A stretch of 64,000 bases of DNA, taken from NCBI RefSeq assembly GCF_000378245.1, contig NZ_KB899491.1, positions 372,001-436,000 of the forward strand. The letters are read 5' to 3'. The position numbers and the translations under genes were made by a program. Below are positions 59,497-64,000 of this stretch, piece after piece. Under the pieces are notes generated by a model. It searched no databases, was not told the origin of the DNA, and saw nothing but the letters and a program-made list of their open reading frames with translations. How positions within the stretch are numbered: position 1 is the first letter of the stretch; each line of letters begins with the position of its first letter. Origin of the DNA: Aromatoleum toluclasticum ATCC 700605. Its GTDB lineage: Bacteria > Pseudomonadota > Gammaproteobacteria > Burkholderiales > Rhodocyclaceae.

Positions 59497-61857
59497 ATGT
59501 CCATCAGCACGATGCAAGGAAAGCCCGGAGCCGGAGGAGAAGTCGCGACGCGGCTGGCCTTCTTCAAGGGCTTGCAGGCGATCACTGCACGTATCCACGC
59601 GAGCAAGGATATCGACGAGATCGTGTCCGAGCTGTCGCCCGAGCTGTGCTCGCTGTTTGCGGCCGAACGCTTGTCCTTCTTCGTCGTGAGCAAGTCGGGG
59701 ACGTATCTCGAGGCGCGCGTGAAGACCGGTCACGGTGCAGTGCCGGGGGCACGTCTGGCCATCGACGGGAGCAGCATCGCGGGCTATGTCGCGCAGACGG
59801 GGGAGACGCTCAATCTGCACGACGTCTACGATGCCGCGGAGCTCGCCGCGATTTCGCCGACGCTGCGCTTCCGCACGATAAGCGACAACCTCGCCGGGGT
59901 GCGCACGCGGCAGATGCTGTGCGCGCCAATCATTGATCCGAACAGCGGCAAGCTGCACGGCGTCATCCAGGTGATGAACCCCGAAAGTGGGGCGGACTTC
60001 TCGCCCGTCGCGAAGGAAGGCCTGCTGGGGTTGGCGCAGACGCTGGGGGTGGCTTTCGCGCAGCGCAGCAACGCGCCGGCGGCACTGCGCTCGCGCTACG
60101 ATGCGCTGATCGCCGACGGGCGTGTCGTCGTGGGCGAATTCGATGACGCGACGCGCATCTCGCGCGAGACCGGGGCCCACGTCGAGGACGTGCTGGTGGA
60201 AAAATACGGCCTCACGCTGCCGCAGATCGGCGATGCGGCGGCGCGTTTCTTCAACGTCGCGTACGAGCCGTTCCGCTCCGATCGCGTCAAGCAGCTGGAC
60301 CTGCTGCGCAACATCAAGCGCGAATACGTGCAGCAGAACCGGTGGCTGCCGCTGGAGGAGACCAACGAGGGCGTCGTCCTGCTTACCTACGACCCCGAGC
60401 AGGTGCGCGTGTCGCGTGTCGCCGAGAACGTGTTCCCGCGGAAGAAGCTCGCCTACCGCGTCACGACGCAGTGCGAGTTCGAGCAGACCGTCGACCACTA
60501 CTTCGAGCCGACGATGGAGAGCGGCTCGGTCGATGATCTGCTGCACGACCTCATGGACGACGAGCAGGAGGGCTCGGTCGCCGACGACGTCTCCGCGGCG
60601 GCCGACAACGAGCTCGTCAAGCTCGTGAACAAGATCATCATCGACGCCCACCGCCAGGGCGCCTCGGACATCCACATCGAGCCGCGTCCGGGCAAGGAAA
60701 AGACGCTGATCCGCTTCCGCAAGGACGGCACGCTCGTGCCCTACATCCAGATCCCCGCGAGCTACCGCAATCCGCTCGTGACGCGCATCAAGATCATGTG
60801 CGACCTCGACATCTCCGAGCGCCGCAGGCCGCAGGACGGCAAGATCAAGTTCCGCAAGTTCGCGCCGCTCGACATCGAGCTGCGCGTCGCGACGGTGCCG
60901 ACCGCGGGCGGGATGGAAGACGTCGTGATGCGCGTGCTCGCCAACAGCGAGCCGCTGCCGCTCGACAAGCTGGGGCTCAGTCCGCACAACCTCGCGCGTC
61001 TGAAATCGGTGATCGTGAAGCCCTACGGTCTGTTTTTCGTGTGCGGCCCGACCGGATCAGGCAAGACGACCACGCTGCATTCCATCCTCGGCCACATCAA
61101 CACGCCCGAGACGAAGATCTGGACCGCCGAGGACCCGGTCGAAATCACGCAGAAGGGTCTGCGCCAGGTGCAGGTGAACCGCAAGGCCGGTCTCGACTTT
61201 GCGACGATGATGCGCTCCTTCCTGCGTGCCGACCCGGACGTGATCATGGTGGGCGAAATGCGCGACAAGGAGACCGTTTCGGTCGGCATCGAAGCCTCGC
61301 TGACCGGCCACCTCGTTTTCTCGACGCTGCACACGAACAGCGCGCCGGAATCCATCGTGCGCCTGCTCGACATGGGCATGGACCCGTTCAACTTCGGCGA
61401 CGCGCTGCTCGGCGTGCTGGCGCAACGGCTGACCAAGCGGCTGTGCAAGTGCAAGGAAGCCTATCGCCCGGAAGACGGCGAAGTGGAGCAGATCCTCGAC
61501 GAGTACTGCGAGGACATGGCCGCGACGCCGGATTTCCGCGCTGATCCGGCGGCGGCGCGCGCGGCGGTGCTGGCCCGGCTGAAGGCCGAGCATGGCGGCG
61601 CGGACGGCCAATTCACGCTGTACCGCCCGGTGGGCTGCACGGAGTGCAACGGCGGCTATCGCGGGCGCGTCGGCCTGCACGAGCTGATGGTTGCCTCGAA
61701 CGAGGTCAAGCGCCTGATCCAGGAGCGTGCGCGCGTCGCCCAGCTCCTCGCGCTGGCGTTGGCCGAAGGCTTGCGTACGCTGCGCCAGGATGGCATCGAG
61801 AAGGTTTTCGCGGGCGTCACCGATATGGAGCAGGTGCGGCGGGTGTGCGTGCGCTGA
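59497..61857 (+). CDS. GAF-domain GspE/PilB-type secretion ATPase
   Basis: The 786-residue protein has an N-terminal GAF domain (about 30-190), a T2SSE-N/MshEN-like region (about 195-330) and a full secretion ATPase domain. The ATPase has the Walker A GPTGSGKT (517-524), the VGEMRDKETV Walker-B-like box, TLHTNSAPESI, and zinc-binding cysteines C650, C652, C714 and C717. No pilin, GspF or secretin gene is near, so it is an orphan ATPase. The GAF domain suggests ligand-controlled activity. Confidence 0.87.
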   Translation: MSISTMQGKPGAGGEVATRLAFFKGLQAITARIHASKDIDEIVSELSPELCSLFAAERLSFFVVSKSGTYLEARVKTGHGAVPGARLAIDGSSIAGYVAQTGETLNLHDVYDAAELAAISPTLRFRTISDNLAGVRTRQMLCAPIIDPNSGKLHGVIQVMNPESGADFSPVAKEGLLGLAQTLGVAFAQRSNAPAALRSRYDALIADGRVVVGEFDDATRISRETGAHVEDVLVEKYGLTLPQIGDAAARFFNVAYEPFRSDRVKQLDLLRNIKREYVQQNRWLPLEETNEGVVLLTYDPEQVRVSRVAENVFPRKKLAYRVTTQCEFEQTVDHYFEPTMESGSVDDLLHDLMDDEQEGSVADDVSAAADNELVKLVNKIIIDAHRQGASDIHIEPRPGKEKTLIRFRKDGTLVPYIQIPASYRNPLVTRIKIMCDLDISERRRPQDGKIKFRKFAPLDIELRVATVPTAGGMEDVVMRVLANSEPLPLDKLGLSPHNLARLKSVIVKPYGLFFVCGPTGSGKTTTLHSILGHINTPETKIWTAEDPVEITQKGLRQVQVNRKAGLDFATMMRSFLRADPDVIMVGEMRDKETVSVGIEASLTGHLVFSTLHTNSAPESIVRLLDMGMDPFNFGDALLGVLAQRLTKRLCKCKEAYRPEDGEVEQILDEYCEDMAATPDFRADPAAARAAVLARLKAEHGGADGQFTLYRPVGCTECNGGYRGRVGLHELMVASNEVKRLIQERARVAQLLALALAEGLRTLRQDGIEKVFAGVTDMEQVRRVCVR

Positions 61858-61875: not shown

Positions 61876-61949
61876 TGTGGGAGCGGCTTCAGCCGCGAAT
61901 GGGCGCCGATTCGCGGCTGAAGCCGCTCCCACATAGCCCGCTCCCACAG
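61876..61949. repeat. REP-like palindrome: perfect 25-bp arms plus a partial copy
   Basis: The first arm (61876-61900) and second arm (61909-61933) are perfect reverse complements around an 8-base loop. The core gtgggagcggcttcagccg matches a REP family common in pseudomonads and Rhodocyclales. A partial copy (gctcccacagg) follows at 61940-61950. It lies between the convergent-free ends of the GspE-like gene and rpe and may also act as a terminator. Confidence 0.8.
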
Positions 61950-62003: not shown

Positions 62004-62699
62004 ATGTACCGCATCGCCCCCAGCCTGCTTTCGGCCGACTTCGCCCGCCTTGGCGAGGAAGTGCGCAACGTCATCGCCGCCGGCGCGGACTGGATCCACT
62101 TCGACGTGATGGACAACCATTACGTGCCGAACCTCACGATCGGGCCGCTGGTGTGCGAGGCGATCCGCCCGCATACCGAGGCGCCGATCGACGTGCACCT
62201 GATGGTGAAGCCGGTCGATCGCCTCATTCCCGACTTCGCCAAGGCCGGTGCGAACGTGATCACCTTCCACCCGGAAGCGTCCGATCACATCCACCGCACG
62301 CTCGCGCTGATCCGCGACCACGGCTGCAAGGCCGGCCTGGTGTTCAACCCGGCCACCCCGTTGCACTACCTCGACCACGCGCTCGACGACATCGACATGG
62401 TGCTGCTGATGAGCGTGAACCCCGGCTTCGGCGGACAGAAGTTCATCCCCGGCACGCTGGCCAAGCTGCGCGCGGCACGCGAGCGGCTCGACACCTACGA
62501 GGCGGCGAGCGGGCGTCACATCCTGCTGCAGATCGACGGTGGCGTGAAGGTCGACAACATCGCCGAGATCGCCGCCGCGGGAGCCGACACCTTCGTCGCC
62601 GGCTCGGCAGTGTTCGGCGCCGGCCGTGATTCCGATCCCAACCGTTACGACAGCGTGATCGCCGCGCTGCGTGCCGAACTCGCCAAGGCACGGCCGTGA
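62004..62699 (+). CDS. rpe: Ribulose-phosphate 3-epimerase
   Basis: Rpe interconverts ribulose 5-phosphate and xylulose 5-phosphate in the pentose phosphate and Calvin pathways. The 231-residue TIM barrel has [49 protein letters not shown] and IDGGVKVDN. It overlaps gph in a GTGA junction. The rpe-gph-trpE order is common in proteobacteria. Confidence 0.97.
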
Positions 62700-63373
62700 G
62701 CACCGCGCGCTTCCCGGTGCGGGCGGTGCTGTTCGACCTCGACGGCACGCTGCTCGACACCATTCACGACCTGGCCGACGCGGCCAACCTGATGCTCGGC
62801 GAAGTGGGTCGCCCGGCACGACCGCTGAAGCAGATCCACTCCTTCGTCGGCAAGGGCATCCCCAACCTCGTGCGCCGCTGCATGACCGAGGACGCCGAGG
62901 CCGGCGAGGACGAGATCGAGCAGGCGGTTGCGGTGTTCCGCCGCCACTATGCCGACGTCAACGGCCGCAGTACGCGCATCTATCCCGGCGTGATCGAGAC
63001 GCTGGAGGCGATGCGCGGGATGGAGCTGCGGCTGGCCTGCGTCACGAACAAGGCCGAAGCCTTCACCCTGCCGCTGCTCGAGCGCATGGGGCTGACGTCG
63101 TACTTCGGCGCGGTCGTGAGCGGCGACACGCTGCCGGTGAAGAAGCCCGATCCGGCCGTGCTGCACCACGCCTGCGAGCTCTTGGGCGTGCCGTCGCCCC
63201 AGGCGCTGATGATCGGCGATTCGGCCAACGACGCGCTCGCCGCCCGCGGCGCGGGCATGCCGGTGCTGCTCGTGACCTATGGATATAGCGAAGGCATGGC
63301 GGTGGACACCATAGAATGCGATGGGCTACTATCGATCGCTACCGGGGCGCTCGACCGCATCGAGGCGGCGTGA
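62696..63373 (+). CDS. gph: Phosphoglycolate phosphatase
   Basis: Gph removes phosphate from 2-phosphoglycolate. The 225-residue HAD-family protein has motif [12 protein letters not shown], a cap domain, the VTNK motif II region, KKPDPAVL with the motif III Lys, and the motif [12 protein letters not shown]. The GTG start at 62696 overlaps the rpe stop, indicating translational coupling. Confidence 0.95.
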
Positions 63374-63431
63374 AGTTCCGGCGCATCTCGGCAAGAAACG
63401 CCGCAAGACACCATCATCCGATTGAGACATC

Positions 63432-63530
63432 GTGACCTACAGGAACCGGGATTCGGTAAAGGAAAGCATCCAGTTTGTCGCCGCGCAGTTGCGCTGGCGC
63501 GGCTGGCGCTCGTGGCCTGCGGGCCACTAA
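63432..63530 (+). CDS. trpL: Candidate trp leader peptide
   Basis: An open frame of 32 codons starts with GTG at 63432 and ends in TAA at 63528-63530, upstream of trpE. Trp codons fall at 22, 25 and 28 (63495, 63504, 63513), in WRGWRSW, with the third inside a stem and the stop just after it. An in-frame TGA at 63423 rules out a longer N-terminus. The ribosome-binding site is weak, so translation is inferred. Confidence 0.6.
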   Translation: MTYRNRDSVKESIQFVAAQLRWRGWRSWPAGH

Positions 63531-63564
63531 TACGCGACTGCTTCGCGGGCCACGACGCGCCCGC
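63512..63564 (+). promoter_or_regulatory. Candidate trp attenuator with alternative hairpins
   Basis: gtggcc (63512-63517) can pair with ggccac at 63522-63527 or, through a 9-nt direct repeat gcgggccac (63519-63527 and 63545-63553), with a second ggccac. The second copy can instead pair with gcccgc at 63559-63564. A cgcga/tcgcg hairpin lies between (63533-63547). These exclude one another, as in attenuators, but there is no strong T-run right after the last stem; TTTT lies at 63586-63589. Confidence 0.5.
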
Positions 63565-63602
63565 ACCCCTTGCCGAATCGAACCGTTTTCTGTGGAGTCT
63601 CC

Positions 63603-64000
63603 ATGCTTGAGCAGGAATTCAACGCGCTGGCCGCGCGGGGCTACAACCGCATCCCGGTCACGCTCGAAACCTTCGCCGACCTCGACACGCCGCTGTCGAT
63701 CTACCTGAAGCTCGCCAACGAACCGTATTCCTACCTGCTCGAATCGGTGCAGGGCGGCGAGCGCTTCGGCCGCTATTCGATGATCGGGCTGGCGGCCTCG
63801 ACGCGCATCGAGGTCTATGGCCGCTCCGCGCTGCTGCTGACCGGCAACCGCCTCGTCGAGCGGCGCGACTACGGCGATCCGCTCAACTATGTCGCCGAGT
63901 TCATGGAGCGCATCAAGGTGCCGCCGCGCGACGGCCTGCCGCGCTTCGCGGGCGGCCTGGTGGGCTGCTTCGGCTACGACACCGTGCGCTACATCGAGCC
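63603..64000 (+). CDS. trpE: Anthranilate synthase component I, N-terminal part cut by the window end
   Basis: TrpE makes anthranilate from chorismate, the first step of tryptophan synthesis. About 132 codons are visible, from MLEQEFNALAARGYNRIPVTLETFADLDTP to GGLVGCFGYDTVRYIE. The LLES motif near residue 46 (PYSYLLESVQGGERFGRYS) belongs to the Trp feedback site and is intact. The ATG at 63603 has a GTGGAG site upstream. It follows the candidate attenuator. Confidence 0.94.
   Translation, partial: MLEQEFNALAARGYNRIPVTLETFADLDTPLSIYLKLANEPYSYLLESVQGGERFGRYSMIGLAASTRIEVYGRSALLLTGNRLVERRDYGDPLNYVAEFMERIKVPPRDGLPRFAGGLVGCFGYDTVRYIE

Follow-up and report, generated by a model that had tools for sequence, protein, structure and literature searches.

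Trp attenuation is the standard textbook example of gene control through termination of transcription. In the classical enteric trp attenuator (RF00513) a leader peptide with clustered Trp codons precedes trpE, and the position of the ribosome serves as the sensor. The locus described here has such a leader and probably such a sensor as well. It differs in that its Trp codons are spaced by three, the Shine-Dalgarno (SD) sequence of trpE is paired with the leader start, and neither an intrinsic terminator nor an Rfam match above the cut-off was found. Because the defining terminator was tested for and not found, we count the leader as a variant of leader-peptide attenuation that stands outside the classical trp attenuator. 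In Bacillus subtilis, a hairpin driven by TRAP sequesters the SD sequence of trpE and is closed when tryptophan is plentiful. The target would be the same here, a trpE ribosome site closed at plentiful tryptophan, whereas TRAP was not found in the 21 genomes that we searched.

The cat resistance genes are controlled by the same type of translational attenuation as erm. For erm, an antibiotic-stalled ribosome at a fixed leader codon is described as the signal (PMC10219788). This type resembles our locus in having a leader ORF and a helix that holds the SD sequence of the next gene and that ribosomes on the leader open, or in our locus would open; it differs in that our modelling suggests that a stalled ribosome alone leaves the helix closed. 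The closest published architecture that we found is the LEU element that Seliverstov et al. (2005, PMC1262725) described upstream of leuA in Actinobacteria, where a run of leucine codons pairs with the SD sequence and a pseudoknot has been proposed. Mutated leucine codons were reported not to alter regulation (PMC1262725). Both elements carry codons for the product amino acid in a leader ORF and a base stem that joins leader codons to the SD sequence of the structural gene. In our leaders, however, it is the start region that pairs, with the Trp codons further downstream at distances of 3 to 96 nt (median 43) from the anti-SD. In those parts of the literature that our search covered, we recognised no account of such a betaproteobacterial trpE leader; two attenuator surveys lay outside its scope. 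These surveys, by Lopatovskaya et al. in 2010 and by Vitreschak et al. in 2004, may include this leader.

The window analyzed is a stretch of 64,000 nucleotides from Aromatoleum toluclasticum ATCC 700605. Its end comprises rpe, gph, the leader ORF and the start of trpE, in that order. In Pfam, rpe (62004-62699) corresponds to ribulose-phosphate 3-epimerase and gph (62696-63373) to a HAD hydrolase; the name gph comes from the first-pass annotation. On the forward strand, trpE starts with the ATG at 63603, and its 5' part (63603-64000, the rest lying beyond the window end) matches Anth_synt_I_N and Chorismate_bind. ORFs 3' of trpE in the genome match GATase, Glycos_transf_3 and IGPS and were read as trpG, trpD and trpC. 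Among named relatives, Aromatoleum evansii and A. tolulyticum are closest in the first part of TrpE (99%). The end of gph contains a promoter-like site on the forward strand (63303-63332, TGGACA-18-TACTAT), which agrees with the consensus in 9 of 12 positions (0.0 expected in shuffles) and is likely to be the promoter of the leader and trpE. A -10-like hexamer 20-135 nt upstream of the leader start is present in 109 of 149 relatives compared with 12.1 in shuffles, a count to which the coding constraint of gph adds.

The leader ORF (63432-63530, forward strand) consists of 32 codons with a GTG start and a TAA stop (63528-63530) and encodes the peptide MTYRNRDSVKESIQFVAAQLRWRGWRSWPAGH. Between 63495 and 63515 on the same strand it contains Trp codons 22 (63495-63497), 25 (63504-63506) and 28 (63513-63515). 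The first-pass annotation had described this frame correctly; only its wording of Trp "at every third position" needs to be corrected to three Trp codons that are three codons apart. All 17 genomes of the genus, our own counted, match the region and contain the ORF, with 32 codons in 16 of them and 33 in one via an in-frame insertion. W22 and W28 are present in 17 of the 17 genomes and W25 in 16, so that the conservation of the Trp codons in relatives, proposed earlier as a check, was found. In the 16 leaders of equal length, the changes summed over pairs (763, 683 and 595) are spread about equally over the codon positions. Apart from Trp, the residues are therefore not conserved in the manner of a functional protein. 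That the leader is translated is argued solely from the open frame and its Trp codons. By eye, no clear SD sequence was found at the leader start; frequent initiation on the leader is thus not assured.

The sequence from 63432 to 63606 folds with a predicted energy of -89.5 kcal/mol compared with -67.6 +/- 3.9 kcal/mol for dinucleotide shuffles (z = -5.65, none of 200 as good). A longer segment (63339-63660) is also more stable than its shuffles (z = -3.2, none of 100 as good). The region from 63530 to 63620 folded alone shows nothing unusual (z = +0.67), and the fold signal thus stems from the pairing with the leader. This pairing is predicted as a 27-bp helix, P0, reaching from 63434:63599 through 63462:63568. 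Its 27 pairs have probabilities above 0.5 and do not change when the region is folded within four different stretches of 175-501 nt. The 5' arm (63434-63462, forward strand, as are all elements named below) begins with the last base of the start codon and runs to codon 11. The 3' arm (63568-63599) runs through the trpE Shine-Dalgarno region GUGGAGU (63592-63598), which is paired to the leader with a mean probability of 0.85-0.86 in the four contexts. Leader codons 2-3 act as the predicted anti-SD (63435-63440). A long-range pair of 63450-63462 with 63568-63579, which the first-pass annotation had put last, is indeed predicted; it forms the inner part of P0, which extends to 63434:63599. By the folding, this pair is the main element of the leader, and it reaches the SD sequence of trpE.

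RNAalifold recovered P0 unprompted from the 17 genus sequences, with three hairpins inside. Hairpin PW (63484-63508) holds Trp codons 22 and 25 and contains two pairs with changes on both sides. Hairpin P1 (63512-63527, GUGGCC-UGCG-GGCCAC), which is also backed by the genus counts, holds Trp codon 28. Hairpin P3 (63545-63564, GCGGGC...GCCCGC) is located 3' of the leader stop, and both the sequence and the terminator scan show no T-run behind it. When P0 and these hairpins are counted jointly, 97.6% of the cells pair compared with 41.0-45.7% with the partners slid, a control that is lenient because the structure was derived from the same genus sequences. Both-side changes were observed in 17 cells (ten of them in PW) compared with a shuffle mean of 6.6 (0 of 500 shuffles). 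The number of pairs carrying such changes shows no excess (3 vs 3.0 in shuffles). For P0 alone 96.9% of the cells are paired. One of its pairs is changed on both sides in 7 sequences, a cell count that is also attained in 5 of 500 shuffles; the shuffles show more further pair types than P0 does (10.5 vs 9). Compensatory changes in the stems, the other check proposed earlier, thus occur in the genus but are thin: one pair (7 cells) in P0 and two pairs in PW. As judged from the alignment, the genus backs P0 by retention more than by covariation. The anatomy of the leader element is well supported.

Beyond the genus we collected 117 trpE upstream regions, 70 from 193 matching genomes of the family and 47 from 140 matching genomes of the order. 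The family regions were returned as loci (30) or picked by place (40), mostly one per genus; those of the order comprise 27 loci and 20 regions by place, with two duplicates removed. At least two Trp within the last 22 codons of an ORF were found in 100 of the 117 regions and were missing in 17. Among the 116 regions with enough sequence, an ORF with at least two Trp was present in 100 and one with at least three in 68. The corresponding values are 14.3% and 1.4% for dinucleotide shuffles, and 16 and 1 of 116 for the reverse strand. Windows further upstream in coding DNA, a less flattering control, gave 50 and 17 of 112. In this ORF survey and in the arm-swap test below, the automatic leader rule chose an apparently wrong ORF in some loci, e.g. 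L101 and L113; a stricter rule, employed for the one-locus-per-family test below, corrected L113 and left L101 as it was. Upstream of trpE in one genus (g37), two regions (L033 and L034) contain leader-like ORFs with one Trp codon, perhaps a decaying sensor. Second matches in five genus genomes (L139-L143) were discarded as chance similarity. This was judged from L141 alone, which we take to resemble a murG coding sequence.

On a wider alignment of 28 sequences (A2) RNAalifold did not return P0, probably owing to a loop that varies too much for alignment, and we therefore used tests on individual sequences. Since a free duplex search over 180 nt was noisy (large bulges), a swap test with fixed windows was employed instead. 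For the 96 leaders with a start codon, the cognate arms pair with a mean of -19.1 kcal/mol compared with -14.8 kcal/mol for swapped arms, and none of 2000 permutations reached the cognate mean; individually, only 18 of the 96 leaders beat 95% of the arm swaps. The cognate pairing was stronger than that of a 5' window moved upstream by 45 and 90 nt in 84% and 77% of the leaders. Moving it 45 nt downstream resulted in a mean of -17.1 kcal/mol, with the cognate stronger in only 56%. In partition-function folds the SD sequence is paired to leader nucleotides 1-45 with a mean of 0.53 (above 0.5 in 59 of 96 leaders, below in 37). Shuffling codons 2-15 among themselves lowers the mean to 0.17 and leaves a single leader of the 96 above 0.5. 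Within the genus of the window, pairing in L011 depends on the context, with 0.79 in one and 0.01 in another.

A second set of 80 named loci, partly from the same species as the first, yielded 78 usable loci and 61 with leader and start. Here the SD-leader pairing exceeds 0.5 in 32 of 61 compared with 6 of 61 after codon shuffling. Counted from 30 nt before the leader start, a window without a matched shuffle, 45 of 61 rows exceed 0.5. In the class of Dechloromonas and Azonexus, the SD sequence pairs about 10 nt upstream of the leader start and the first Trp is at codon 7. Taking at most one locus per family left 33 families, 26 with a leader and 7 without. The SD sequence is paired above 0.5 in 17 of these 26 compared with 2 of 26 after shuffling (p = 0.0005). 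Among the nine families with a leader and no such pairing, L115, L118 and L120 have longer spacers. The evidence for P0 across families is stronger than that from the genus because the arms differ among families yet stay complementary.

In our reading, the element is probably a tryptophan-sensing translational attenuator whose leader start region would hide the trpE ribosome site. The predicted pairing strongly suggests that P0 represses translation of trpE. That tryptophan is the signal is suggested by the codons themselves, and we hypothesize from the folding that ribosomes open P0. The first-pass annotation had allowed for a mechanism other than the classical one, by Rho, translation coupling or an RNA switch. 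Translation or Rho is indeed likelier than a classical attenuator; the weight placed on a switch made of the repeat stems was not supported (see below).

In order to model the opening of P0, ribosomes were represented as unpaired masks of 30 nt in equilibrium folding. Opening the trpE site of the window costs 20.9 kcal/mol without a ribosome, and a single ribosome placed on W22, on W28 or on the stop codon leaves this cost at 20.9 kcal/mol. The masking thus lends no support to the release of P0 by a lone stalled ribosome. With one ribosome queued behind W22 the cost decreases to 14.1 kcal/mol, with a full queue of three to 10.2 kcal/mol and with one initiating ribosome to 10.5 kcal/mol. Averaged over 149 leaders, opening costs 13.0 kcal/mol without a ribosome, 11.9 kcal/mol with one on the first Trp codon, 8.2 kcal/mol with the full queue and 7.9 kcal/mol with an initiating ribosome. 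A drop of at least 3 kcal/mol was calculated for 28 of 149 leaders with one stalled ribosome, for 90 with the queue and for 92 with an initiating ribosome; for L011 no drop was observed (7.0 to 7.5). The effect on the unpaired share of the SD bases is modest, from 0.18 to 0.28-0.30 in 11 leaders of the window's clade and from 0.20 to 0.32-0.35 in all 96. Since one stalled ribosome had no effect in the window, the sensing step would need trailing ribosomes or timing during transcription. The modeling argues against direct release by one stalled ribosome and points to the occupied leader start as the control point. Equilibrium folding is blind to timing, and a ribosome that has loaded onto the nascent leader before the SD sequence emerges may be more important than a queue.

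Based on these results we propose the following mechanism. The trpE ribosome site would pair with the leader start region to form P0, closing both initiation sites together. Ribosomes at the Trp codons of the leader would read the supply of charged tRNA-Trp. If tryptophan is ample, they would clear the leader, P0 would close and trpE would not be translated; the unprotected, untranslated message may then be lost, perhaps via Rho. If tryptophan is scarce, ribosomes would stall at these codons and those behind them would queue as far as the leader start. Queued ribosomes would then cover the anti-SD arm, and the trpE site would remain open.

The SD sequence is paired to the leader start region in 118 of 149 leaders. 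In these, the distance from the anti-SD to the first Trp codon (the 3 to 96 nt given above) clusters mainly at 24-36 nt (32 of 118 leaders) and at 48-60 nt (36 leaders). It is suggestive that these correspond to approximately one and two ribosome lengths, a spacing that would suit a sensor based on queueing, but the comparison is confounded by shared ancestry. A widespread attenuator of betaproteobacteria that reads tryptophan shortage by whether the queue reaches the leader start, not by the stalled ribosome, is conceivable, though we hold it doubtful. Equally tentative is the corollary that the trpE ribosome site and the initiation site of the leader would lock each other. A large bacterial group, in which neither TrpR nor TRAP was detected among the 21 genomes checked, thus seems to retain a Trp-codon sensor with its output rewired to hiding the trpE ribosome site in the leader start. 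If true, this would explain how many betaproteobacteria may control tryptophan synthesis. It would also mean that one sensor was rewired to a different switch, with ribosome queueing as a regulatory signal that is directly testable.

The strongest alternative is transcription attenuation, in which the leader would set termination versus read-through before trpE and P0 would be secondary. Its most likely route would be termination by Rho in the spacer, which is C-rich and untranslated, or a weak hairpin terminator. Clustered codons for the product amino acid in a leader are what characterizes transcription attenuators. In addition, the strong GC hairpin P3 is kept in the genus, and a hairpin with a T-run occurs in a few relatives (L118 and L047). 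However, a scan of 63250-63700 yielded no intrinsic terminator (hairpin plus T-run), as the first-pass annotation had noted for the last stem. Terminator-like sites around or after the leader stop were found in 14 of 149 distinct leaders, near the 9.2 expected by chance from mononucleotide shuffles. Antiterminator and terminator as covarying alternative pairings are unsupported in the genus (no both-side changes). The Rfam Trp_leader (RF00513) did not reach its cut-off in any of 21 genomes (13 of the genus and 8 others of the order, one of these 68% complete), while the E. coli positive control was found. Transcription attenuation would also leave unexplained why the SD sequence pairs with the leader start across families, and we regard it as unlikely. 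As to other regulators, neither the Trp repressor TrpR nor TRAP (PF02081) was found in any of the 21 genomes, with the positive controls (B. subtilis in the case of TRAP) detected.

It is considerably less probable that tryptophan is not the relevant signal and that P0 merely couples trpE to leader translation or lowers trpE translation. Any ribosome at the leader start opens the site in the folding, and changes in the leader are not enriched at third codon positions. Mutations of the leucine codons of the LEU element are likewise reported to be without effect on regulation (PMC1262725). Against this stand the clustered Trp codons upstream of trpE, which are far more frequent than in shuffles, and their presence in 16 or 17 of the 17 genus genomes while other residues drift.

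The first-pass annotation had emphasized mutually exclusive stems that share a 9-nt repeat. The repeat, gcgggccac, is present at 63519-63527 and 63545-63553, and the core of the alternative pairing between P1 and P3 overlaps both hairpins, so that the genus counts do not speak decisively against it. In the genus, L125 and L126 have GCGGGCGAC in place of the second copy, and L131 has GCGGGCTGC. An independent switch between P1 plus P3 and this alternative pairing, formed by the stems around 63512-63564 and not involving P0, is highly improbable: its helix (63512-63521 : 63544-63553) belongs to the minimum-energy fold of the leader region (63432-63606), and in the genus 95.3% of it is paired, but it shows no both-side change, its values equal those of shuffles, the repeat itself varies within the genus and no T-run follows P3.

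Some further observations were made at these loci. Upstream of trpE in family f4 (L118), an ORF with Trp codons is followed by a GC hairpin and a run of six T, and no SD-leader pairing was found; given this hairpin and T-run, a classical attenuator may replace P0 there. In family f1 (L061) a hairpin formed by the last Trp codons abuts the stop codon and a run of six T, a terminator-like layout at the leader end. Two regions of one genome (G202, family f5; L225 and L226) contain Rfam Trp_leader matches below the cut-off (31.4 and 29.3 vs 41 bits), located away from trpE. An Rfam scan of 63100-64000 with E-values up to 5 returned snoZ6, Cis52_sRNA and mir-3017, all far under their gathering scores and judged to be chance. 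In family f14 (L099) the leader start and the SD region upstream of trpE form a long, near-perfect inverted repeat of the type CCACAGAGACACAGAGGCACAGAG with a duplex energy of -50.5 kcal/mol. It resembles a widespread simple repeat and was perhaps recruited as the P0 helix. In the window itself, the interval that separates rpe from the upstream gene, which ends at 61857, contains a REP-like element at 61876-61940, an inverted repeat made up of GTGGGAGCGGCTTCAGCCGCGAA and the reverse complement of this sequence. This element gave 78 match rows in its own genome, most places appearing in rows for both strands because it is nearly palindromic.
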